Below are positions 693-60,163 of a DNA stretch of 64,000 nt, piece by piece (positions within the stretch are counted from its first letter, which is position 1; each line of letters starts with the position of its first letter). The DNA is from Amyelois transitella (Eukaryota; Arthropoda; Insecta; Lepidoptera; Pyralidae). The stretch is taken from positions 2,418,001 through 2,482,000 of the forward strand of contig NC_083513.1 of NCBI RefSeq assembly GCF_032362555.1, read 5' to 3'. The position numbers and the translations under genes were made by a program. Under the pieces are notes generated by a model, which did no database searches, was not told where the DNA came from, and worked only from the letters and a program-made list of their open reading frames with translations.

Positions 693-1826
693 GGAGATAA
701 TATTTATAGTTTCAAGAAAAATATGAGTTAATAAATTTATTATGTAAATACCTACTGTGATTAATGAAAGCAGTATGTATCTGTAGAAATATGAAAATTT
801 TAAAAAAATATGCTGCATATTTTGACTTTACTGGTCGTAATAGTACTGTAATCTTTTAATATATACTTCATAAATATAAACACTGATTATATCTTTTTCC
901 GAGATGGGTAGGCGGAGCTACATTTATTCAGTTGCCACGAGCTCTGCATACTTTTTGCACTTTATTCATATTCATTTAAACATACTAACTAATAAAAATA
1001 TCCCAACACCACTTTAATGTAACCACCTTATCCATTTAATCATATACCATTTTATCTAAAAACGGAAATAAATATTTAGCGTCCGAAAAAGAAAAAAGGA
1101 AGCAAAAGTATAAAACGAAAAGCTGGCAAAAATAAACAAGTTTTTGGAATGTCGGCTCCTGAAAAAGAGAAGCTTGTAAAAGATGGAGGGAATACTTAAC
1201 TACAAATCAGGACAAATCCTACAAAAAGAAAAAGTTTATGACTAATATGAAGAATTAACTTACAAATATTATTTATGTATACGTATGTTTGTCTGTTTGT
1301 ACACGCTTATCTCTGGAACCACTGGACGGAAAAGAATGAAATTTTTTTGTTATTAAAATACTAGGTTTTATCAGCCGCTTGGCCCGTGTGAATCCGCCAG
1401 CGCCATCTACAAAAGTGACGAATTTAACTCCATCTACAAAAAAGGGATGCAAGGGCACCTCCTACAAAAAAGCAACGAACTTAACGCTACCTACAAAAGA
1501 AAGCAGGTATTTCGCAAATCTCAAGGAAATATAGTTTTTACCAGGTTGAAAGGTACTTTACGTCCTTCTTCAGTTGAATTGTATTTTAAATTTATTAAAA
1601 TACTTTTATTAATTAATTAAAATTAAATTAAATTTAAATAATTTTATTTAATGAGTAAGTGATTAAATTTATGAAATGATTAAATTAAATTTAATGATTT
1701 TATTCAATTATATCCAAATAATGTAATTATCTACTATTTGATAATTTTCCTGTTTGACCATATTGGGGTTTAAACCAGAGGTAATAATAAGATAAAAATA
1801 AAAAAAAATCAGGTATCCGCAAAAAA
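693..1826. other. exon-free stretch with worn repeats
   Basis: No FLYWCH signature. Bases 1080-1240 hold a lysine-rich, frameshifted stretch (reading GMSAPEKEKL) that resembles the C-terminal part of the AER-type motif seen at 1827 and 47.6k. Bases 1280-1510 match a dispersed repeat (cacgcttatctctgga-ccactggacgg) seen again near 15.25k. Bases 1575-1720 are very AT-rich. Confidence 0.45.
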
Positions 1827-2046
1827 ATGCCACTCAGTGGTGCGGAACGTACGAGAATCTACCGAGAAAGGCTTAAACTATATCGCCCAGAAGAATATGA
1901 AAGGCAAAGAGCTAAAGACTATCAAGAAAAGAATTTCAGAACTGACACCAGAAGAAGCTGTAGAGAGAAGGCAAAGATGGAAACTAGAAAAAAGGCAGAA
2001 TAGGCTTAAAGTCAAAAGCAGAATGAAGACCAAGAGAATAATTTAG
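1827..2046 (+). pseudogene. frameshifted basic AER-motif gene remnant
   Basis: Two frames together carry one recognisable basic motif. From ATG 1827 the first frame reads MPLSGAERTRIYRERLK followed by a YRPEEYERQRAKDYQEK segment. The second frame (GTG 1837) then picks up KRISELTPEEAVERRQRWK and runs to TAG. This N-part plus 'ISELTPEE' order is the same as in the intact exon at 47611-47924 on the other strand, so I read this as a copy broken by one frameshift. The motif is known from uncharacterised, often transposon-associated arthropod proteins; its function is unknown. A hAT-type element lies about 70 bp downstream. Confidence 0.5.
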
Positions 2047-2115
2047 AGGAAAACTTAAAATCTGAGATGAAATGAGAGGAAATGAGAGCGCTCAGAAGTA
2101 AAATTGAGAGACAAG

Positions 2116-3056
2116 CAGAGCCGGATTAACCCTGTCATGGGCCTGTAGGCACTACCATTTTCGGGCCCCTTTTCTTTACCTATTCTGACTGATAATCATG
2201 TGATGTATTTTTTTTGCCTTCTACTAGGGTTGCCAACATTTTAGTGTCAAAATATAGTATTTTTTAAGAAAAGCTTTTAAAAATATAGTACCTTGCACAT
2301 AAATATAGTATTTTAGTAGGGAACAATAAAACATTACCTAAGTTACATTTTACTAATTAATTTTTTATTTTTTACTGGCCAAAAACTATATTTTTTTGCA
2401 CTTTTTAACAATTTTTTCTCTCCAATAAAACTGGCAGAAGGTTTATCGCAGTAAATTTTTAAATAACTATAAATCAAAAGCTCATTTTTAGTAGGTATAA
2501 AAGATATATGTGCTCTGTTTCTTTCTTCACACCATTTAGAATTCATAATCCTTTCTATGAATGCCGAAATAGCGGGAACACTTTTGTTTTAAATACTTTT
2601 GGTTTTGTGTATGTGAAAATCGTAAGTCTTCAAATACGGAGAACACATAAACTTTTAAAATTTACCTTGCAATCGCAGAACTCATATCACATATTGTAAT
2701 TAAAGATACGTAGGTTATAGGTATTTTGAAAGTTTCGGAACTATTACGCTACAAATTATTATCACCCTACGGAAGCTTACAGAACGCACCCAACAAATCG
2801 GGGATTCCCCCAACGTACATGAAGTCCAGTTAGTTGCGATTCGAAGGATTATATTAGTTCTTATATTAGATACTAGATGGTTCTGTATGTATAAAGTGTT
2901 ACAGGTGTTGAAAAAGAAAGAAAAGTTTTGTTAATTATCATTTTCGTTCAATTAAAAAAAAAAATATTTTCGGAATGCAGTGCAGTGGGCGGGGCCCCTG
3001 TCGATGCTGGGCCCCTAGGCAGTTGCCTACTCTGCCTTAAGGTTAATCCGGCTCTG
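2116..3056. mobile_element. non-autonomous hAT-type DNA transposon
   Basis: A 941-bp element with perfect inverted ends (CAGAGCCGGATTAACC at 2116 and its complement ending at 3056). It is flanked by an 8-bp direct duplication GAGACAAG at 2108-2115 and 3057-3064. The 8-bp duplication and CAGAG..GG ends are typical of hAT elements. No transposase frame is visible, so it would have moved with a partner's enzyme. The intact duplication suggests a fairly recent insertion. Confidence 0.9.
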
Positions 3057-16224: not shown

Positions 16225-17156
16225 ACAAATAGAATAATACAGTAAAGTAGGTACTTGAATGATTTTTATTAATTTTTAGTTTCATTCTTTATTTAAAGTT
16301 TAAGATGTAAAAGCTCTGAAAGTAATTTACCAAATTTCGTTGTCATGGAAAGCAGTGCACCACCGCCTTGGTATCTTAAGCTGCGTACACACTGGGTCAA
16401 CAAATGTGTTTCGCTAGCCTTCTTTGGTCCTGTTTGAACATACATGTTCAAGTCGAGAGCTAACGAATTTGTGTATGTTTTACGCAACACTTGAACCGGG
16501 TATCTGGGTACATTTTCTAAACTGACCAGTCTGTTATAAAATAAATATTATAATAAATAAATGTAAGTAAATATTAAATGGATCACACAAAAGTTGTTTT
16601 ATTTAATTTGGCACACAGTAAACAGTGGACTATTCAACTAAGTAGTTTTGGGGAATCTTACACAATGGACAACCACACACTAGTATTGTTCTTACAACGT
16701 TTATTGACGTCACATACAGACAACACTTAAACTATCACTAGTGAATGCCGGGGTTTGTTTTCGTGTCGCGAGTCGGCTCAGCGGGCTTTGAGGCCGGCGA
16801 GCGTTCTCAGCGATGTAGAGAAAACAAACCTAATTGTCAGAGACGGGTGGGGTCACGACGAGGCAAGGGTAGCTGTGTCGGGCGTTCTGGCGTGGAGGGA
16901 GGCCAACTCTTGCATGTGTGGTAGGGTCGACTCTCCTGTTCGTTGGAACTGCCTTCTAGCTAGATGCCTAATAAAAGCTCTCCATCCGCAATCTCCTGTG
17001 AATCAAGGTAATTCGCACATAGCGCGGGGCGTTAGTTATAGTTCTAATAGAGAGAGAAGCTGGCGCGGCGTAAGTTAAGCGTGGGCGTATGTAGGTCCGG
17101 GAAAAAGGCGTGAAATTATGTATGTACGGATATAAAGCTACTTAGATGATCTTCAG
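16225..17156. other. unassigned, GC-rich block
   Basis: Bases about 16740-17080 are clearly GC-richer than the surroundings and contain a 107-codon open frame without any recognised domain. The block ends in a repeat-B-like tail (17078-17125), so I take it as part of a mobile element rather than a gene. Confidence 0.4.
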
Positions 17157-17310
17157 AGGGGTTAGTGCGAGTTTTAGTCGGTCAAACGCGTCGAGCAAGT
17201 AAACGCGAGTTTGTATGGAGTTGCATTAGTGCCTTTGGGTTACCACTAGGTGACGCTGATCACATATAAATTCGCGTTTACTACATCGACGCGTTGGTGA
17301 AGTGAGCAGA
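17157..17310. mobile_element. MITE copy, same family as 25.2k
   Basis: Starts aggggttagtgcgagttttagtcgg and contains tcaaacgcgtcgagcaagtaaacgcgagtttgtatgga, then taccactaggtgacgctgatcac. The same blocks occur at 25191-25360. The right end here is worn. Confidence 0.7.
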
Positions 17311-17733: not shown

Positions 17734-18601
17734 GTAAGTTTTTGATGAAATAATTGTGGTGAAATCGGTTTTTCCAATTAACGACATTAAAGCATAAAGT
17801 AGGTCATTTACCCTTCCGCTTGTACTCATAGATTAATTCAGGCCTACTTGATTATAGCATATGTTCGTGTTAGGTGGGTTTGTATAAGAAAATTAAAAAA
17901 ATGTTAACATATTAGTTATTTTTAAGATTTGTATGATTTGAAAATGTAGGTACATTTTACCTGTGTCTATTCAACTTTTCATGTTTTTGCCTCTTTTTAT
18001 AGTAGATTTATATAAAAGAACATATGATTTATATACAAAGAATACAAATCTGATGTTTAAATTTATTTTTGGGTAAATACATATTCAAACATTGATTTGA
18101 ATTTGCCTACTTTCCCAAATTTTATTAAAGAACTGATATTTTTCTATCAATTAATAATTCTTTATGATCATTATAACATGTACAAGTAATTATCTATTTA
18201 AATACTTTGAAAACACAGAGTGGATGAAAATGTGTGAACATGTATGCATTATGCAAACAAAGAAATATATATGCATAGCTAATTTAAAATAATAGGCTAT
18301 ACAGCTTTTATACATGATAAACAATATTCTCTAAGATATGACGTAAAAAGCAAATTTTTTCTTTCCAAATTAATTTCTGATGTTAAATTGAGCAGTTTGC
18401 TTATTCTTTGTTGTTGTTTAATAAATTATAAAAAAAATGTTTTGTGTTTGTTACTTATAATTATTTTGTGAACTTTTTCTTTAATAAAAATTACTTTGAT
18501 ATTTTTTGTATTATTTAAAACAATCTTCATTTTTATTAAATCATTCTTTAAAATATTGTATCTGTAGTAAATTAGTAATATAAAAAAAAAATATTTTGCA
18601 G
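17734..18601. other. AT-rich intron
   Basis: Follows the candidate donor and ends in ATATTTTGCAG at 18591-18601. No repeats or domains noticed. Confidence 0.4.
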
Positions 18602-19047
18602 GAGTAGAGTTGTTTGCTAAAAACAGAGTAGCTCCGATGAAGAAAGAATTCAACGATAAACTTGAGAGAACCGTTGTTCGTAAAAAGGGAAATAGTATTT
18701 TTTTTATTGACTCTGACAGATACGAAGAATTCATTTCACAAGTGAAAGACATCAAGCAGCGCTACAATAAAACATATGAAGACTACAAAATGCTTGCCAA
18801 TTACGATGTGACCGAAATTAGTGGAAGGGAACGTTTGATAAAACCACAGGATGAAGCAAACCCAAATATAAAATTTTATGTCCACATTGATGAGTTGTTT
18901 GGAGTTCTTCACACCATACACTTGTTGTTTAACCATGCCGATAAAGATGTAATGGATGCAGAGTTGAAAACAAAATATTGTAATGTTTCCAAAGAGGTTA
19001 TTAAGATTTATTTGAGTTGTTGCCAATTTTGTAATAGTAAAAGCTAA
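18602..19047 (+). CDS. H2C2 integrase-type zinc domain exon (KRBA2-like)
   Basis: About 148 residues in phase 1 after TTTTGCAG|GA. The N-terminal half is basic (KKEFNDKLERTVVRKKG, then FIDSDRYEEFI). The C-terminal half has the HHCC zinc-binding order of integrase N-terminal domains: His-x4-His (IHLLFNHADKDVMDAELK), KYCNVSKEVIKIYL, and CQFC. This arrangement is familiar from KRBA2/SCAND3-like, transposon-derived proteins. No catalytic integrase core follows; the frame stops seven residues after the first Cys of CQFC. Two readings are open. It may be another alternative exon of the array, since phase and acceptor fit. Or it may be a small domesticated gene starting at ATG 18637, with its 5' exon near 17.7k. 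Confidence 0.7.
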
Positions 19048-21568: not shown

Positions 21569-21813
21569 GCAAAAAGGCTTTCGTCATTCAATCTCTGCGC
21601 GGCAAGCCTTTGATCGTGTTCAACAATTTCACGTACTGTCGCCATTCGGTGCGCAATGGCATCGTCAGGTGGACGTGCTCCACCCACTCCTACAAATGCT
21701 GCAAAGCTGTCGTGAAGACGGAAGGAACCACAATCATTGAAGTCAAAGGGTTCCATAACCACGACGCCTCGGAATTGTTGATCAATCGCGGAAAGAACTG
21801 TTTATTTGTTTAA
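21569..21813 (+). CDS. mod(mdg4): FLYWCH alternative 3' exon 14
   Basis: FLYWCH exon after AATTTTTACAG|GC, phase 1. Core: SLRGKPLIVFNNFTYCRH, VRWTCSTHSYKCC (C-x7-C) and FHNHDASE. The tail is NRGKNCLFV. The 14 residues before the first possible start codon (KKAFVIQSLRGKP) belong to the domain lead-in, supporting the spliced start. With its RW-CSTH core it belongs to the same subgroup as exon 16 and the minus-strand exons around 36-43k. Confidence 0.9.
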
Positions 21814-24148: not shown

Positions 24149-24426
24149 AACAGCAATATAATGTTAAATTATGTCCTATTTGTGGAGACCCAGTCAATGG
24201 GATGCATTACGGTATTCGCTCATGTGAATCTTGCAGGCTGTTCTTTCAAAGGACCATCAACAAGAGTAGAAGTTACGTGTGCAATAGCGACGGGCACTGC
24301 GTTTTGAACCGTGTTACCAGGACACTATGTCCAGCGTGTAGATTTGATCATTGTATACTAGCAGGGATGTCGCCATCTTTAGTGCGTTCGAATAGGCGCG
24401 GTAGAAGATCAAGAAATGTTCCATAA
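24149..24426 (+). CDS. nuclear-receptor-type C4 DNA-binding domain exon 1
   Basis: Phase-1 exon after CTCATTTTCAG|AA, about 92 residues. It contains all eight zinc Cys at canonical nuclear-receptor spacing. Finger 1 is CPIC, 13 residues, CESC; finger 2 is Cys-x5-Cys-x9-Cys-x2-Cys (VCNSDGHC ... LCPAC). Also present are HYGIRSCESCRLFFQRT (P-box ESCRL) and CRFDHCILAGM. After Met-Gly the basic stretch VRSNRRGRRSRNVP resembles the A-box of FTZ-F1 (NR5) receptors, which helps half-site DNA binding. No ligand-binding domain follows; a stop comes directly. If spliced like its neighbours it would give a BTB protein with a receptor-type DNA-binding tail. Homology to receptors is clear; membership in this gene is inferred from phase and position. 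Confidence 0.85.
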
Positions 24427-24583
24427 TTTTTTTTTTTTTAATTTTGGTTTACCCTACGTCTTGCCTATCTACCTTACGTACTAAACCTACTTTATTTGAA
24501 GTAGTTTTCTACCATAAATTGCCCGATTTATGATTTCATGTTAAAAATAAGCGTGTCTAAATAACTTTTTTTTTATTTTACAG

Positions 24584-24678
24584 TACGCAATATCAAAAAA
24601 GGAAGGAAAAAACTCGTTTGTGAGTATACTTACATAATAAATAACGTTGGTTCAGAAAAATATGATTCAAAATCATGA
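24584..24678 (+). pseudogene. decayed FLYWCH exon remnant
   Basis: After a good acceptor (TTTTATTTTACAG|TA) a phase-1 frame reads RNIKKGRKKLVCEYTYIINN, which looks like the front half of a FLYWCH domain (basic G-K-x-L then Y-T-Y). It then loses the motif and stops after about 31 codons, with no Cys pair or His pair. It lies between the two nuclear-receptor-type exons. The match is short, so this is tentative. Confidence 0.4.
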
Positions 24679-24887
24679 ATTGATTAAAATAAAGCATGTT
24701 TAATATTGATAAAAAGATGATATTTATTTGTTATTTTTTATTTTTATTGTGATTTTGATGGCGCACGTTGCGGGATCACAGTTTTATTTATATGTACTTA
24801 TATATTTTGTGCGTAGATTCGATTCTTGTTTGACAAAACGTTACGTTTTTATTGATTAAAAATAATGATTCTTATTGTATTTTTCAG

Positions 24888-25138
24888 CTTCAAATTGTCC
24901 AATCTGCGGTGATGAGGTGAGCGGCTACCACTACGGGGTTAAAACTTGCGAATCATGTAAAGGATTCTTCAAACGGACTTTTCAAGGGAACATGTTTGAA
25001 AACTATCGGTGTAAGAGAGGCGATGGTAAATGTAGAATTTCGATGAGCAACAGGACCTCCTGTCGACTTTGTAGATACAACAAGTGCTTGTTTGTTGGCA
25101 TGCTGCCTGTCTTTAAACAGGACGCCTTATATCTCTAA
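24888..25138 (+). CDS. nuclear-receptor-type C4 DNA-binding domain exon 2
   Basis: Phase-1 exon after TATTTTTCAG|CT, about 83 residues. Finger 1 is [20 protein letters not shown] (CPIC, 13 residues, CESC) followed by CKGFFKRT; the P-box ESCKG is that of FTZ-F1. Finger 2 has an unusual Cys-x6-Cys (CKRGDGKC) and a 17-residue link between fingers, 2 longer than usual. [14 protein letters not shown] closes the domain. The last 11 residues before the stop are encoded by a MITE (see 25099-25383), so the A-box-like basic tail of the sister exon is missing. DNA binding may therefore be weakened. Confidence 0.83.
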
Positions 25139-25383
25139 AATAAGGATTTTAAGGAAATAAGGATTTATTTTAGAGATATAAGGCGTCCTGAGGGGTAAGT
25201 GCGATTTTTACTCGATCAAACGCGTCGTAAATAAAGGCGAATTTGTATGTGATTTGATCAGCGCCATCTAGTGGTAACGCGATGGCACTAATGCAATTCC
25301 ATACAAATTCGTGATTACTTGCTCGACGGGTTTGGTCGAGTAAAACCCGCATTAACCCCTCTGTTTAAAAACAGGCAGCATAT
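25099..25383. mobile_element. nested palindromic MITE at exon end
   Basis: Outer inverted ends: catgctgcctgt-tttaaacag at 25099-25120 and the complement at 25361-25383. Inside them is a perfect hairpin (aggacgccttatatctctaa and continuation, 25119-25143 against 25165-25189). A second MITE follows at 25191-25360, starting aggggtaagtgcg and ending in acccct, of the family also found at 17157. The left end begins within the Gly codon of the exon's GM motif and supplies the stop. Confidence 0.8.
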
Positions 25384-26424: not shown

Positions 26425-26490
26425 ATTGGGATTCTTCTTTTAGGGGACGGGCTAGACACCTGTCACTTTATATGATTCTCAATTCTATCA
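26425..26490 (+). mobile_element. repeat A, left half, split by LINE
   Basis: Reads attcttcttttaggggacgg then gctagacacctgtcac to caattctatcat. The repeat resumes at about 27887 (taagccaaacagttgaacgtgg), exactly where the consensus continues. Confidence 0.75.
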
Positions 26491-27886
26491 TGTATCATAT
26501 TTGACCGACAAGGTGGATAGGGGGACGCAGGTAGATGCTATATACACTGACTTTAGTAGCGCCTTTGATAAAGTTAGTCACTCTCTTCTGCTTGATAAAC
26601 TATTAGCATATGGCGTATGTGGCTCGTTTCATGAGTGGTTGGCTTCATATCTGCAGGCTAGGAAGTCGACAGTGGCAACAAACGGTTACTCCTCAAAGCC
26701 ATATGTCGCAACATCAGGCGTGCCCCAGGGTTCGCATCTCGGTCCGGTCTTGTTTCTAGTATTCATGAACGACATTGTTGATTGTATAAAACATAGTGAA
26801 TACTCACTATTTGCCGACGATATGAAAATATATAAAACTATATCTACTATGCAAGATGTGCAGGAGCTTCAGTATGACTTGGATCGTGTTAGTGACTGGT
26901 GTTTAAAAAATAGTATGACTATAAATCCCAGTAAATGTTTTCATATTAAGTTTACCAGAAATAAAAATAAGCTAAGTTCCTCGTATGCAGTCAACAATGT
27001 TATGTTGGGGGAGGTGAAGCAAATCCGCGACTTGGGTGTGACTCTGGATAGTAAGCTGAGTTTCATACCTCATTATGATGCCATTGTCACAAAGTCCTTC
27101 CAGATGCTCGGGTTCATTAAACGCAACACTAAAGATTTTAAAAACGTAAATACTCTAATTGTTCTTTTTAATGCACTAGTTCGCAGCCACCTGGAATTTG
27201 CGAGTGTGGTTTGGAATCCATTTTATAAAAAACATAGCGACAGCATTGAGCGTATTCAAAGGGCATTTACCCGTCAGCTAGCATTTAGAACCCCTAACTT
27301 TAGTTACAGAAACGATTATAGCCAGCGACTATCTAAATTTGAGTTGTTTTCTCTTGATAAGCGACGCCAGATTTTGGATTTAATATATTTATTTAAGTTA
27401 ACTAATGGCATAGTCGACTGTCAAAATGGCACGGTTAGGCTTAAGTACACGGTTCCTAGGCCAAACTGTCGGAGAAAACTATTTAAGACCTTCGTTGTAC
27501 CTATATCGCGTACTAACCTCGGAAGAAGTGCGCCCTTACCGCGAATGCTTACTGCCTATAATAAGTTAAACGAAAAGTGTGACTTAGATATTCACCATGA
27601 TTCCCTTTCGAAACTCAAAAGTAAATTAAATCAGTTATTTAATCAACTGTAAATAATTCATATTAAATAAAAAAAAAATAAATAAACAAAAAATGTAAAT
27701 GAAACTATGTAAATTATTATATTATGTATATTATGTATGAACTGTATTTCTACTACTACTTTTATTGGTAAATGCTGTGTTCACCTTTAATTGGGTTGCA
27801 TGCTAGATTAAGTACTTTTGAATGTATCATATAAATGTAAACATGTATCCTGTTGGTGTACCTTAAATAAATAAATAAAATAAAAT
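26491..27886 (+). mobile_element. 5'-truncated LINE with reverse-transcriptase frame
   Basis: An open frame (26501-27652, 383 codons) holds the later part of a non-LTR reverse transcriptase: DFSSAFDKVSH, SGVPQGSHLGPVLF, the catalytic FADD motif (LFADDMKIY), and GVTLDSKLSF followed by the thumb region. The endonuclease and the first RT blocks are missing, so it is a dead-on-arrival copy, though the remaining frame is open. It ends in an AT-rich tail with aaataaataaataaaataaaa. The type is like Jockey/CR1-related elements; I cannot be more exact. It sits inside a repeat A copy. Confidence 0.85.
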
Positions 27887-28165: not shown

Positions 28166-28401
28166 AATCTCTCATACCTCGGTACAGCTGGTCGCGTCTC
28201 GGTAACGCCATTATAATCCTGGGGGAGCATCGTTTTAAGAAACGCTCTAAGCATATAAATCAGAAGAAAGAAATACATTGGGTTTGCAATAAGAGTGATA
28301 AAGGGTGTAAAGCGAAATTGACGACTTTGAACGATGCTATAGTTAAAATGTTTAATGAACACGACCATGATGGGTCGAGGAAGAACAGATCTAACTTATA
28401 G
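28166..28401 (+). CDS. mod(mdg4): FLYWCH alternative 3' exon 15
   Basis: FLYWCH exon after TTTTTTTTACAG|AA, phase 1. Core: IIILGEHRFKKRSKHINQKK, HWVCNKSDKGC (C-x6-C), and EHDHDG for the His pair. The tail SRKNRSNL is short and basic. The LTTLNDAIV segment matches the minus-strand exon at 41713 (YTLNDVIV), placing it in the subgroup around the strand switch. Confidence 0.88.
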
Positions 28402-31268: not shown

Positions 31269-31423
31269 TGGCAATTTCTGATGGTGTTAATGGACACTTC
31301 CCTGAAAAGCTGCCGCGCCAACTGCGGTGTGTGGAATGTCATAAGAAAGCTCGATGGCAGTGTAAAAAATGTTCAAAAACGTTGTGTATACATAAATGTT
31401 GTTTTGAGAAATATCATACCTGA
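31269..31423 (+). CDS. piggyBac-type Cys-rich domain exon
   Basis: Short exon (about 52 residues, no start codon) after TTTTTTTTTGTTCAACAG|TG, phase 1. The peptide reads EKLPRQLRCVECHKKARWQC, then CKKCSKTLC, then a final CCFEKYHT-stop. The order Cys-x2-Cys, Cys-x2-Cys, Cys-x3-Cys-Cys-Phe and a final YHT matches the C-terminal zinc-binding domain of piggyBac transposases. No transposase catalytic sequence is next to it. With clean acceptor, shared phase and intact ligands it looks like a captured domain used as an alternative tail. It may instead be a lone transposon remnant that by chance kept its frame. Confidence 0.75.
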
Positions 31424-34738: not shown

Positions 34739-35169
34739 TTACTCAAATATCCGAATCTTCTCATGTAAATTTTCGACGTGAACTTTCAAATTGTATTTCT
34801 TCAAAAACCTCCGCTGGCATATATGACATTCAAACGGCTTCTCGCCAGTATGGGTCATTCCATGTTTACCTAAATCGTGTTTAGTTTTAAAGCTACGGTT
34901 GCAAATATCACATTTAAACGGCCTCTCTCCGGTGTGAAGAGCTATATGTCTTCCCCACAAAGTTTTTTTCGGAAACGATTTGGTGCAGATGTTGCATTGA
35001 AAAGGATTCACGCTCTTGTGTTTGTTGCGCATGTGTCGGCTGAAGTTGGAAACGCTAGCGTATCTGTGCTTGCACAGATGGCACTCATATTTGCGATCTG
35101 CCGAAGCGGGATTCTCGGCTGCTGAATTTTCACGTGTTGTTTCACTGTTTTCTTTAGTTTTGTTGCCAT
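34739..35169 (-). CDS. four C2H2 zinc fingers, alternative 3' exon
   Basis: On the complement a phase-1 exon follows TTATGTTTTCAG|AT. A polar leader (about 30 residues, Lys/Glu/Asn/Thr-rich) precedes four C2H2 fingers: YECHLCKHRY with H-x4-H, FQCNICTKSF, FKCDICNRSF and FECHICQRRF. Linkers are TGERP and TGEKP, typical of DNA-binding finger arrays. It ends in ENLHEKIRIFE-stop. Such C2H2 tails are the usual type in lola, another BTB gene with alternative 3' exons, but are unexpected among FLYWCH exons. The same phase and same acceptor style suggest it belongs to the array. A separate C2H2 gene whose last exon happens to lie here remains possible. Confidence 0.8.
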
Positions 35170-44445: not shown

Positions 44446-45795
44446 CTAGTGAAAGAAAAATCGAAAAGTGAATAATGAAGAATATACAAGTGTTAAAAAG
44501 TAATATTTAATTAATTTATCTCGACAAATTTAATGTCAAGCGAAAAAAAATACGAATAATGCAAATACTAATGTTGCTGTTAAATAGTCAACTAGATAGA
44601 TAGATAGATAAAAGCTTTATTCACCATCACAATACATTAGTTGGACACATACATAATTAACAGTAATAAACAATGTGAATGTGCAATGTGCATGAATGTA
44701 CCACAAACAATGATGGACAGTGAAAAGGTCCTGACTCAGCATAATGTCGCAGGTGTAGGCACCGCGACGCTGATGATTCTGCCAGAACCTTAGATGAGCT
44801 CAGCGAAGCCACACGAAGAGGAGATAAATGTACTAGTTATAGGGCGAGTGTCCAGTAAAGTTTGTTAATGGCTCAGCAAAAAAGAAATAAATAAGTGCGA
44901 ATGTAATAAATATTTTCATTTACTGTTGCTTATTACTTAAGTGTTAAAAAAAAGCGCATGCACGTCACTTTAACAATCAAATAGTTCAATAATTAAAGAC
45001 TGTAGCCACACTAGGAAAACATGCGAGTAATGTTTGTGTATATATTTGTATATTTAACTTTGTGATTGGGTCAAACGTTTGCCATTCCAATTGCATTTGA
45101 CATAATAAATTCCTTAAATTTAAGTTTAAATGAAAAGAGTGATTTTAAATTTCGAATAGGAGGGGGGATATTATTCCATATTTTAGTGGCATTATACCTA
45201 AAACTACAACAGAACGCAGCTGTTCTGTGTCGAGGCACGACGAGAGGAGGGACACATGTTCTCAACCCCTCCGATCCTCTCGGATATCTCAATTTTATTT
45301 TGTCATACAAATACATAGGCGACTTCTTGTTGATCACACCAAACATAAGGGTTGCCATGTACAGTTTCTGTCGATCTCGCATTTTTAAGAGATTTGAGGA
45401 GTAAATGAACGGACTAACACTTGTGCGAGGTGGAATTTTAAAGCAATATCGTGCACAGGCATTTTGTACCCGCTGTATTAGTTTCTGCGATTTAGCTAAG
45501 AGACAAGGTCCGTATACAGTAATGCAATAATTAAGCTTAGATAAAACCAGTGCCTCACACAGAGAGATACGTAAATCTACGCATATGAAATCTCTAATAC
45601 GGTATAAGACTTTCAGTCTATAAAAACAACTCTTCACCACCCCCGCCACATAATCCTCAAACCTAAGTCTGCCGTCCATCAGTACTCCCAAATTTCTAGC
45701 CTCTTCTACCATATCAACACTGGATACATTATCGATAATCGTAGTTCGGCGACAGTAGCATATAAAAAAATAAGACGTGTTGAGTTTGTACTAAG
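44446..45795 (-). mobile_element. truncated LINE, minus strand, between duplicate exons
   Basis: A frame on the complement (45071 to about 45792, over 230 codons) reads ARNLGVLMDGRLRFEDYVAG, LSKLNYCITVYGP, VQNACARYCF and RYNATKIWNNIP. This is the thumb and C-terminal region of a non-LTR reverse transcriptase; the catalytic core is missing. The 3' UTR side (toward 44590) ends in a (TAGA)n run at 44591-44609. It is a different family from the LINE at 26.5k. It lies between the two near-identical exons at 44237 and 46337, so the insertion probably came into one of the duplicated units. Confidence 0.78.
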
Positions 45796-47610: not shown

Positions 47611-47924
47611 TTAATAAAAGTAATCTATATTTTTCCATTTATTTTTCTGGTAGAACCTTCTCGAATATTCCCTCTGTTTGTCTCTAGCTATTTTCTGTTC
47701 TTCAGGGCTCATTTCACTTAAAGCCTTAACTTTTCCTAATTCTTTGTTCTTCTGATATCTGAGTCTGTCTTTTTCAAGAAGTTGAGCATAAAGTAGTGGG
47801 TCACTTCTTATACGTTTTAGTCTGCGGCGCTCTGCATCTCTTTTTTTCCTTAGTCTCTCTGATTCTGCTTTCTTTTCTTTACTAAGTATAACGGGAACAC
47901 ACACTAATAATGTGAGTATTATTA
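47611..47924 (-). CDS. basic AER-motif domain exon, function unknown
   Basis: On the complement, a phase-1 exon follows GTACTTACAG|TA (a second in-phase acceptor, ATTATTAG|TG, lies 18 bases further in); about 105 residues. After a hydrophobic lead (IILTLLVCVPVIL) comes a strongly basic, probably helical stretch: KKRDAERRRLKRIRSDPLLY, LLEKDRLRYQKNKE, KALSEMSPEEQKIARDKQRE, YSRRFYQKNKWKN. The motif order is that of uncharacterised arthropod proteins often linked to mobile elements; a frameshifted relative lies at 1827-2046. There are no zinc ligands, so as an array exon it would add a quite different, perhaps nucleic-acid-binding tail. If the inner acceptor is used the hydrophobic lead is shorter. 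Confidence 0.6.
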
Positions 47925-48191
47925 CTGTAAGTACATTATGCTCTTGCCACTTTATGTTTATCTGTATAAAATCTGTATTAAAAAAACAGTTAAATGTTTA
48001 ACACACAGTTTTATTTATTCGCAAATATGTATATAAAACATTTTCCTGTTTTCTTTTTAAATAACAGATTTCTATTTTTATTCAAATTGTCCTTATTAAA
48101 ATTATCATGTAACTCGTGTAGTATATCATTAACTCACCTTACCAACCAAACTACTAAATAGATCAGGTTTCGCTTCTGTGAACTATATTCC
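47925..48191. other. short spacer
   Basis: AT-rich; nothing noticed beyond the 3' flank of the next exon. Confidence 0.4.
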
Positions 48192-56578: not shown

Positions 56579-56766
56579 TTAATGGTTATGATAACCACTG
56601 CTTCTAGAAATGACATTGTTGATCGTGAAGATGGCTGAGTTACAACCCTTGTTCTTCTCTACACATCGCCATCTCGTCTTCAGATGGTTACTGTAGTGCT
56701 TCCAGTATTTGTAATTATTAATTCTGAGTATAATCTTCCCTCGAGCTGTTGTTTCGAAAACTAAAT
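56579..56766 (-). CDS. mod(mdg4): FLYWCH 3' exon A, copy 1 (no start codon)
   Basis: On the complement, after TAACTTTACAG|AT, phase 1; 62 residues. Core: IILRINNYKYWKHYSNHLKT, RWRCVEKNKGC (C-x6-C), SSGYHNH-stop. The chain ends exactly at the second ligand His, as in the exon at 32037. There is no start codon near the beginning. Two more intact copies follow in the other units. Confidence 0.87.
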
Positions 56767-57220
56767 CTGTAAAGTTAAAAAAATCTAATTAACTATTCTT
56801 AGTGAAGTATTAAAAGACCAACAACGCAATTTAGTTTGGTATAAAAAAAACGGTTAGCAATTTAGCTGGTCGTATATTTCCAGTTCATCATATGTATATT
56901 TGATTGCTTAACCGAGTGTTTTTCGTAGATTAACACATAAAAAATTGTTGAGCAGATATTTCTTAATTTAAACACAATACAATTTTGTGAGTGATAATGT
57001 TTTTATACATTACCAATATATGTATTTATTATTTAAAAACAAATAAACAAATTTTTTCAGCATAACTTGTTTCAAATTATTCCACATAGACTGTCGAATT
57101 GCCGATTAAATTGCTCGGGAGCCAGACGCCATACGATGCATAGTTTTTAATACAAACAATTTTCAACCTTAATCTACTAACTATAAATGTTCAGTGAGAT
57201 TAACCGTTTTATACAAGATT

Positions 57221-57427
57221 CTACGATGTCACGTTTTTGGACGTGAACCGTGTCTCAGTAAATTCTCCAGCTATATTGCTCATTCTGGGTTGAGTCCTGG
57301 AGTGGTGATGTTCGTTGATCGTCTCGATCACCAAGTACTCGTGCGTGGTGATGATTCCCGCCTTGCACCCCGTGTGGTATCTGGTGCAGTACCACCGCCA
57401 AGTAGAATGCTTTGCCGTCTGTTTTCT
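57221..57427 (-). pseudogene. mod(mdg4): FLYWCH exon B, copy 1, 5'-truncated
   Basis: Keeps the part from ENRRQTAK-like RKQTAKHSTWRWYC through CTRYHTGC, NEHHHSR and the stop. The first ~25 residues and the acceptor are replaced by the start of the next unit. Candidate AG sites in the joined sequence either meet a stop at once (CAG|GT-TAG; TTAG|CG-GAC-TAG) or enter the wrong frame. It is therefore very probably dead. Confidence 0.8.
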
Positions 57428-57689
57428 AGTCCGCTAACCTGATTCCCATTTTTACCGTTTTCTGAAGTTTAAAGACCCGAATTCCCCCAGCAGTTCCGAA
57501 GTCAAGCAGCTTAAACTCTTTGAAAAGTTTTCCCAAGCCCTATTTTAATGTAATGTAAAATTCTTTTACATAATTATAAGATAAATGATTGCATGTAATA
57601 AATTTAATCAAAAGAATGCAATGTGGGCTATAAACAATATTTAAAAAAAAAGCACTTATCATTCCGTTACCCGAGTAAAAACAAAAATA

Positions 57690-57877
57690 TTAATGGTTAT
57701 GATAACCACTGCTTCTAGAAATGACATTGTTGATCGTGAAGATGGCTGAGTTACAACCCTTGTTCTTCTCTACACATCGCCATCTCGTCTTCAGATGGTT
57801 ACTGTAGTCCTTCCAGTATTTGTAATTATTAATTCTGAGTATAATCTTCCCTCGAGCTGTTGTTTCGAAAACTAAAT
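57690..57877 (-). CDS. mod(mdg4): FLYWCH 3' exon A, copy 2 (no start codon)
   Basis: Same as copy 1 with the acceptor and all ligands kept. The one amino-acid change noticed is His to Asp just after TyrTrpLys (YWKDY for YWKHY). Confidence 0.87.
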
Positions 57878-58319
57878 CTGTAAAGTTAAAAAATCTAATT
57901 AACTATTCTTAGTGAAGTATTAAAAGTCCAACAACGAAATTTAGTTTGGAATAAAAAAAAAATGGTTACCAATTTAGCTGGTCGTATATTTCCAGTTCAT
58001 CATATATTTGATTTCTTAACCGAGTGATTTTCGTAGATTAACATATAAAAAATTGTTGAGCAGATATTTCTTAATTTCAAAATAAATACAATTTTGTGAG
58101 TGATAATGTTTTTATACATTACCAATATAATTTAAAAACAAATTAACAATTTTTTTCAGCATAACTTGTTTCAAATTATTCCACATAGACTGTCGAATTG
58201 CCGATTAAATTGCTCGGGAGCCAGACGCCATACGATGCATAGTTTTTAAAACAAACAATTTTCAACCTTAATCTACTAACTATAAATGTTCAGTGAGATT
58301 AACCGTTTTATACAAGATT

Positions 58320-58526
58320 CTACGATGTCACGTTTTTGGACGTGAACCGTGTCTCAGTAAATTCTCCAGCTATATTGCTCATTCTGGGTTGAGTCCTGGA
58401 GTGGTGATGTTCGTTGATCGTCTCGATCACCAAGTACTCGTGCGTGGTGATGATTCCCGCCTTGCACCCCGTGTGGTATCTGGTGCAGTACCACCGCCAA
58501 GTCGAATGCTTTGCCGTCTGTTTTCT
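58320..58526 (-). pseudogene. mod(mdg4): FLYWCH exon B, copy 2, 5'-truncated
   Basis: Same truncation and same junction sequence as copy 1. The remaining protein-coding part has not drifted, so loss is recent. Confidence 0.8.
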
Positions 58527-58530
58527 AGTC

Positions 58531-59608
58531 CGCTAACCTGATTCCCATTTTTACCGTTTTCTGAAGTTTAAAGACCCGAATTCCCCCAGCAGTTCCGAAG
58601 TCAAGCAGCTTAAACTCTTTGAAAAGTTTTCCCAAGCCCTATTATAATGCAATGTAAAATTCTTTTACATAATTATAAGATAAATGATTGCATGTAATAA
58701 ATTTAATCAAAAGAATGCAATGTGGGCTATAAACAATATTTAAAAAAAAAGCACTTATCATTCCGTTACCCGAGTAAAAACAAAAATATTAATGGTTATG
58801 ATAACCACTACTTCTAGAAATGACATTGTTGATAGTGAAGATGGCTGAGTTACAACCCTTGTTCTTCTCTACACATCGCCATCTTGTCTTCAGATGGTTA
58901 GTATAGTGCTTCCAGTATTTATAATTATTAATTCTGAGTATAATCTTCCCTCGAACTGTTGTTTCGAAAACTAAATCTGTAAAGTTAAAAAAATCTAATT
59001 AACTATTCTGAGTGAAGTATTAAAAGACCAACAACGCAATTTAGTTTGGTATAAAAGAAACGGTTAGCAATTTAGCTGGTCGTATATTTCCAGTTCATCA
59101 TATGTATATTTGATTGCTTAACCGAGTGTTTTTCGTAGATTAACACATAAAAAATTGTTGAGCAGATATTTCTTAATTTAAAAACAATACAATTTTGTGA
59201 GTGATAATGTTTTTATACATTACCAATATATGTATTTATTATTTAAAAACAAATAAACAATTTTTTTCAGCATAACTTGTTTCCAAATTATTCCACATAG
59301 AATGTCGAATTGCCGATTAAATAGTTTTTATTACAAACAATTTTCAACCTTAATCTACTAACTATAAATGTTCAGTGAGATTAACCGTTTTATACAAGAT
59401 TCTACGATGTCACGTTTTTGGACGTGAACCGTGTCTCAGTAAATTCTCCAGCTATATTGCTCATTCTGGGTTGAGTCCTGGAGTGGTGATGTTCGTTGAT
59501 CGTCTCGATCACCAAGTACTCGTGCGTGGTGATGATTCCCGCCTTGCACCCCGTGTGGTATCTGGTGCAGTACCACCGCCAAGTCGAATGCTTTGCCGTC
59601 TGTTTTCT
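58531..59608. repeat. triplicated unit, copy 3
   Basis: Third copy; it lacks about 30 bp near 59320 (the gctcgggagccagacgccat block of the other copies). It runs on without a break into the original sequence of exon B, so this is the copy that kept the ancestral right flank. Confidence 0.88.
58789..58976 (-). CDS. mod(mdg4): FLYWCH 3' exon A, copy 3 (no start codon)
   Basis: Intact; compared with copy 1 it has Ala to Val (TTVRGK) and Ser to Thr (HYTNH) plus silent changes. Acceptor TTTACAG and zinc ligands are kept. Confidence 0.87.
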
Positions 59609-59670
59609 GTTGAACGTGTGGCCTTGGAATAGTAAAAGCTGACTGCCATTGTTTTTTGTAATTATTTGCC
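59402..59670 (-). CDS. mod(mdg4): FLYWCH alternative 3' exon B, complete copy
   Basis: On the complement, after TTCTTTTTTACAG|GG, phase 1; 90 residues. Core: QLLLFQGHTFNRKQTAKHST, TWRWYCTRYHTGC (C-x6-C), NEHHHSRTQ with three His in a row. The tail is long and polar (MSNIAGEFTETRFTSKNVTS). Only this copy keeps the first exon half and acceptor. Confidence 0.87.
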
Positions 59671-60163
59671 CTGTAAAAAAGAATTTTAACTTGTTATCAA
59701 ATTCTTAACTATATTGTTATCTTGTAATATAAATATAATCAATCAGTGTAATTTGTCCCGTACCATATATTTATTTATTTATTTACTATTATTTATTATT
59801 ATCTTGCTTTCATTTTTCATTTAAATAAAAAAAACACTCAACATTCAAATTTGTTTGCAAATAACAGAGTTGTTGCAAGTGGAAGCATGTGGTCTCTGCC
59901 TACCTTTCCGGTAAAGATGTGTCATTTTAATGTTGCGATCCCTAACAGCTATATGAAATCGGGAACAGTTACTATATTTCCCTTTATAGACAGAAGAACA
60001 ATAGAAAATTAAATCATTGACTGACTGACTAATCAACTAACCGCCGAAACTAGTCAAGAGATTTGAATTTAGCATGCAGGAGTGGACTTATGTAGACAGG
60101 ATTTCCAGAATTTCCCACGAGTTTGTTCCATGTATTCCAGTGATGATGTAACAGTTCTGTTAA
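59671..60163. other. spacer
   Basis: Bases 59868-59930 resemble repeat B (gcaagtggaagcatgtggtctctgcctacc). An A/T run lies at 59765-59835. No coding frame. Confidence 0.45.

Follow-up and report, generated by a model that had tools for sequence, protein, structure and literature searches.

The locus raises the question of whether two nuclear-receptor-type (NR) DNA-binding domains (DBDs), lying in an array of FLYWCH exons in Amyelois transitella, can be assigned to mod(mdg4) as alternative terminal exons. The genome searched comprises 327 Mb in 33 contigs, and the window, i.e., the whole 64-kb stretch that was analysed, is C9:2418001-2482000. The first-pass annotation placed the two domains at 24149..25138, and both are confirmed there, with Pfam zf-C4 matches of E 4.6e-25 for NR exon 1 and 3e-26 for NR exon 2. 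All eight zinc cysteines are present in each exon, as it had stated, and the two P-boxes are the ones it had read. The A-box-like tail that it had assigned to the first domain is likewise found, the basic stretch after the fingers (RRGRRSR) being short. The two domains share 48% identity over 71 columns. The solved structures closest in sequence to both are those of the NR5A receptors NR5A2 and steroidogenic factor 1, and the models predicted from 25-row alignments (mean pLDDT 78.1 and 79.8) matched receptor DBDs in the PDB. The rows for these alignments, and for the constraint count given below, were 23 of 120 listed proteins. No in-frame ATG precedes the first Cys in either NR exon frame, so each exon requires an upstream exon.

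Table 1. Coordinates of the features discussed. Positions are those of the window unless a contig (C9) or segment (L026) is named.
Feature	Position	Strand	Description
NR exon 1	24149..24426	+	Phase-1 acceptor (...cattttcag before 24149); coding 24151-24423; zf-C4 domain, P-box ESCRL; basic A-box-like tail VRSNRRGRRSR; stop TAA 24424-24426
NR exon 2	24888..25138	+	Phase-1 acceptor (...tttttcag before 24888); coding 24890-25135; zf-C4 core (P-box ESCKG) to ~25102; last 11 codons and stop (TAA 25136-25138) in repeat
Candidate 36-nt internal exon RNIKKGRKKLV	24584..24619	+	Phase 1 in, 1 out; precedes NR exon 2
Foldback, MITE-like repeat	25100..25381		Arms 25100-25120/25361-25381 plus inner perfect hairpin; interrupts NR exon 2 after the core; partial copy 17154-17295 (82% identical)
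FLYWCH exon upstream of NR exons	21569..21813	+	Same strand and phase as NR exons
FLYWCH exon downstream of NR exons	28166..28401	+	Same strand and phase as NR exons
C2H2 exon, four fingers	34739..35169	-	Phase 1, in minus-strand part of array
zf-BED exon	L026:5737-5964	-	Phase 1, E 3.5e-10, in array
mod(mdg4) common exons, three coding	C9:2763488-2764485	-	mod(mdg4)-type BTB, phase-1 donors

A comparison with a Drosophila BTB revealed no BTB in the window or in 200 kb of its flanks. A search of the whole genome gave 83 BTB matches, and those closest to the array were two pieces at C9:2764057-2764419 on the minus strand. Here lie the common exons that the first-pass annotation had postulated without seeing them. 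The three exons, found within 6 kb (segment L033), are 211, 555 and 75 nt long, each ends in phase 1, and together they encode 280 aa, from MASDEQFSLCWNNF... to ...GGAVGDAQ. Across 116 aa their BTB is 70.7% identical to the Drosophila BTB (Pfam BTB 3e-25). Among solved structures the best matches were human ZBTB17 fusions, and insect CG6765 came tenth among the 60 matches listed.

The phase-1 donors of the common exons are in frame with both NR exons. Joined to NR exon 1, the common exons give an open frame of 372 aa, the junction of which reads ...GDAQ-E-QQYNVKLCPICGD, and this composite scores as BTB (3e-25) plus zf-C4 (5.9e-24) in Pfam, the combination expected by the first-pass annotation; with NR exon 2 the frame is also kept, giving 363 aa. 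The donor locus and the NR exons are 321 kb apart on the same contig and on opposite strands, the donor on minus and the NR exons on plus, so that only trans-splicing could join them. We consider it probable that the NR domains are alternative mod(mdg4) terminal exons, joined in trans to the common exons to give proteins with a BTB and an NR5-type DBD.

The intron that follows the last common exon (L033, ~1640-2290, minus strand) contains 13 GGTAA and 16 AGGTT in 650 nt, which resemble 5' splice sites; on both strands of the 264 kb, no stretch of 650 nt has more than 4 GGTAA, the donor-intron stretch having been picked after reading. A conserved U1-binding intronic sequence has reportedly been found in Drosophila. 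The GGTAA/AGGTT cluster is a candidate trans-splicing element and is in line with the intronic motifs needed for trans-splicing of Drosophila mod(mdg4), which according to a passage of PMC11727487 lie in the corresponding intron, downstream of the last common exon. A passage of PMC12692577 states that all mod(mdg4) mRNAs of Drosophila are trans-spliced and that the acceptor exons are transcribed from their own promoters.

The array itself is far larger than the 64-kb window. A total of 185 FLYWCH ORFs were found in the 264 kb of C9:2318001-2582000 (the window plus segments L009-L028), arranged in blocks of alternating strand and reaching both edges; the window holds 44 of them, or 43 by a narrower search. 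Putative terminal exons occur on both strands, in the phase 1 of the donor. A frame-blind acceptor scan of the 185 ORFs gave 162 with a usable acceptor and 23 without, and phase 1 was found in 147 of the 162 (109/120 outside the window and 38/42 inside). Because the acceptor weight matrix was trained on window exons (37 FLYWCH acceptors, hand-chosen from the 43 FLYWCH ORFs), only the count from outside the window is independent. With this matrix, 25/37 FLYWCH acceptors score no higher than that of NR exon 1 and 30/37 no higher than that of NR exon 2, and only 0.7% and 0.4%, respectively, of 6456 AGs score as high as these two. The clean acceptors and array phase described at first sight are borne out: the NR acceptors score within the range of the neighbouring FLYWCH exons, and both NR exons have the array's phase 1 and the strand of the flanking FLYWCH exons.

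Non-FLYWCH candidates other than the NR exons also occur in the array. Strong phase-1 acceptors followed by at least 45 open codons number 120, 95 of which overlap FLYWCH ORFs and 25 of which do not. Pfam was run on 10 of these 25 candidates and revealed two zf-C4 domains, one four-finger C2H2 and one zf-BED; one weak FLYWCH and one weak family of unknown function fell below the cut-off, and four candidates had no family. The NR type is therefore one of at least three non-FLYWCH zinc domains in the array.

Much of this layout resembles mod(mdg4) of Drosophila and Lepidoptera: BTB common exons, terminal exons on two strands, a FLYWCH majority, phase-compatible junctions and a motif-rich donor intron. 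The use of exons of both strands in lepidopteran mod(mdg4) is stated in a passage of PMC4667647, which also gives FLYWCH in 37/40 isoforms of D. plexippus. The same source counts 31, 9, 40, 41, 35 and 34 exon combinations in six species, against which our 185 is a count of FLYWCH ORFs in 264 kb and not of used exons. Unlike known mod(mdg4), the locus here has NR-type, C2H2 and BED exons in the same phase. The NR exons differ from the usual tail in carrying zf-C4 only and no FLYWCH; the published minority of isoforms (the few in D. plexippus, PMC4667647) also lacks FLYWCH. In the part of PMC11426971 that treats Mod(mdg4)-type BTB transcription factors, the tails described are C2H2, HTH or FLYWCH; lola, a trans-spliced BTB-C2H2 gene of Drosophila, swaps tails in the same way, but these are C2H2 and not FLYWCH or NR. 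A passage of PMC5094011 refers to one Mod(mdg4) isoform that carries a BEN domain. No description of a BTB-NR isoform was found among the titles, abstract beginnings and passages covered, which belong mostly to the open literature and to articles without their supplements.

Among the 39 zf-C4 matches in the genome, only the two window exons lie on C9. The genome's own FTZ-F1 (L001) and HR39 (L005), named from sequence, share the P-box CESCKG with NR exon 2; NR exon 1, with ESCRL, lacks it. The first-pass annotation had called ESCKG an FTZ-F1 feature; this is right for the FTZ-F1 of this genome, but HR39 has it too, and the label therefore widens to NR5 (FTZ-F1/HR39). Trees were built from 15 of the 120 listed proteins and one GCNF domain, on 66-89 columns with long branches. 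In the first tree, which included the tails, NR5 did not form one clade, and the test did not reject (p-AU 0.308) a constraint uniting NR5 with both window rows. For the second, core tree, eight rows were dropped, namely four receptors that were long or distant and four NR5 rows that were near-duplicates. There both domains fell within NR5 (92/94, not starred) and closer to HR39 within it (84/87), a grouping of the two with each other was unsupported (46/11), and a topology holding both with HR39 alone was not rejected (p-AU 0.131). The branch of NR exon 1 is the longest of the first tree (5.27) and is long in the core tree (2.7). For NR exon 1 the nearest receptor is HR39 (53% with the genome's own copy and 55% with a Drosophila HR39), and all of the ten best matches of NR exon 2 belong to NR5, at 58-67%. 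Judged by these comparisons, the window domains are probably of NR5 type.

With the NR5 receptors (FTZ-F1, NR5A; HR39, NR5B) the window exons share the DBD and, in exon 2, the ESCKG P-box; the DBD exon of HR39, too, starts just before CPICGD. Unlike these receptors, they were found without a ligand-binding domain (LBD). The HR39 DBD exon has a phase-2 start and a phase-1 end after KLE, the end point also of the FTZ-F1 DBD exon. A plain copying of the HR39 DBD exon as the source of NR exon 2 is not supported, because the 5' phases differ. NR exon 1 runs through the KLE exon border without an intron and is therefore no simple copy of the DBD exon; it may have arisen as a retrocopy or from an ancestral exon that was longer. 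On the best reading, the tail exons were probably captured from an NR5 receptor. The lack of an LBD, already remarked upon at first, agrees with a search by an eight-protein NR5 profile, which among ORFs of at least 25 aa in 264 kb matched only the two DBDs and no other receptor part; because the search ran on single ORFs, exon by exon, short distant exons could escape it. Nine ORFs near the NR exons gave no Pfam family.

The two exons differ in preservation. The zf-C4 core of NR exon 2 is whole, but the C-terminal extension is absent, as the repeat starts there, and there is no FTZ-F1 box or A-box. Its last 11 residues come from the foldback repeat, so its stop is not the original exon end; the first-pass view of both domains as terminal exons ending in a stop holds for the TAA found in each, but not for exon 2 as an original end. 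NR exon 2, having lost its extension to the repeat, is the weaker case and is perhaps weak or dead, and NR exon 1 is the stronger case for use.

This state of exon 2, the long branch of exon 1 in both trees and a reverse-transcriptase ORF downstream would all fit an alternative in which the array received a copy of an NR5 domain that has since fallen out of use, leaving decaying fragments. We regard this as unlikely, as both cores are intact, the acceptors are good, and agreement with NR5 is far more frequent at the invariant columns than at the variable ones. NR exon 1 keeps 25 and NR exon 2 keeps 30 of the 31 columns invariant across the 23 NR5 rows, a count that favours exon 2 because the rows are hits of its own search (23/120 listed); at the 38 variable columns the commonest residue is matched in 9 (exon 1) and 10 (exon 2). 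Five comparisons involving the two domains gave pN of 0.28-0.38 and pS of 0.77 to 1.01, the latter near saturation. This pattern argues against long neutral decay and gives no capture date; the constraint may predate the capture. A further reading, compatible with the splicing part of the preferred one, is that the isoforms are made but that the NR tail is a protein-protein module and not a DNA binder. Three of the six changes of NR exon 1 at invariant columns (K to R, G to L, K to Q) affect the recognition helix or its immediate neighbourhood and would alter base contacts; the loss of basic residues there (K to R, K to Q) speaks for this reading and fits relaxed as well as changed use. It is also favoured by a passage of PMC11426971, according to which FLYWCH tails may bind DNA, RNA or proteins. 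However, the invariant columns kept by NR exon 2 include the recognition helix, and NR exon 1 keeps its A-box-like basic tail; we hold a pure protein-protein role to be rather unlikely.

The two exons could instead belong to a separate small receptor gene, either DBD-only and knirps-like or with distant exons, that lies between FLYWCH exons by chance. Insects do have receptors with a DBD only, the knirps family, which likewise lack an LBD; unlike the window exons, they have their own gene, another P-box type and no BTB. The two NR exons stand together, and a candidate internal exon lies between them, which would suit such a gene. The acceptor of this small exon scores at least as high as 35/37 FLYWCH acceptors and is paired with the donor GTGAGT, which ranks only 323rd of 3693 GT under a set of donor weights. 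One such exon was counted in the window, compared with 0.10 per window in simulations; the exon is not unique, as a scan of the 264 kb gave one more in-phase case outside FLYWCH exons, and for this reason the candidate is suggestive only. Splicing of NR exon 1 to it was considered and rejected, the phase-1 donor near the 3' end of exon 1 (24401) being weak. Against a separate gene stand the missing in-frame start codon ahead of the fingers, the lack of any other receptor part in the ORFs of 264 kb, and the strand and phase shared with the flanking FLYWCH exons, and we consider it quite improbable.

On the preferred reading of trans-joined terminal exons, the NR exons would be transcribed and would follow the route of their neighbours. 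The donor transcript from C9:2.764 Mb would end its common exons in phase 1, and the plus-strand NR exons would be joined to it in trans, as the adjacent plus-strand FLYWCH exons must be. The product would have a multimerising BTB at its N-terminus and a ligand-independent NR5-type DBD at its C-terminus; for TTK-type BTBs, including that of Mod(mdg4), a passage of PMC11426971 gives hexamers, from experiments or from models. Through the NR tail, which would need no ligand, Mod(mdg4) complexes would be directed to extended receptor half-sites, and the product would possibly compete with FTZ-F1 or HR39. If the exons are used, two kinds of transcription factor are fused in an unusual way, by domain shuffling at the RNA level without gene fusion, and a trans-spliced receptor-type tail would be a new route to a ligand-free receptor-like factor. 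More tentatively, and with considerable doubt, the array might be an exon-capture platform in which an exon with a phase-1 acceptor can become a BTB tail by trans-splicing and which took up NR5, C2H2 and BED domains, the BTB-NR proteins competing or insulating at FTZ-F1/HR39 sites independently of hormone and tying chromatin architecture to the ecdysone programme. At this locus it can be tested directly whether an array of this kind takes in domains from elsewhere.

Protein searches for relatives used each exon in its own frame, with length ranges that include the predicted isoforms of 372 and 363 aa. NR exon 1 (316-aa frame, lengths ~174-553 aa) gave no candidate. NR exon 2 (337-aa frame, ~185-590 aa) gave 1092 hits among 1093 candidates, the best 120 of which contained only zf-C4 or receptor LBD and no BTB. 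A short chimera of exons 1 and 2 (~60-190 aa) gave one candidate and none significant; because the window's own exons were not returned either, absence in relatives is not implied. Viral contigs gave 13 pattern matches, none of them a relative, and phages gave none.

Several other ORFs were noted in and around the array. A reverse-transcriptase ORF at 26456-27652 (+) matches RVT_1 (5.3e-22), and an ORF at 45074-45790 (-) looks RT-like by eye. The phase-1, Cys-rich ORF of 50 aa at 31269-31423 (+) has no Pfam match; its zinc ribbon appears to resemble the C-terminus of a piggyBac transposase. A second BED-like ORF, at L026:2382-2567, was recognised by eye and matches no Pfam family, and a 158-aa ORF at 18571-19047 (+), between FLYWCH exons, has none over the cut-off. 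Three basic ORFs that look alike by eye, at 1791-2000 (+), 47617-47997 (-) and L024:2112-2672 (-), also remain below it. At 56579-59704 (-), FLYWCH ORF pairs are repeated in tandem about 1.1 kb apart (56579/57690/58789 and 57221/58320/59402), and these nearly identical copies are a recent amplification.
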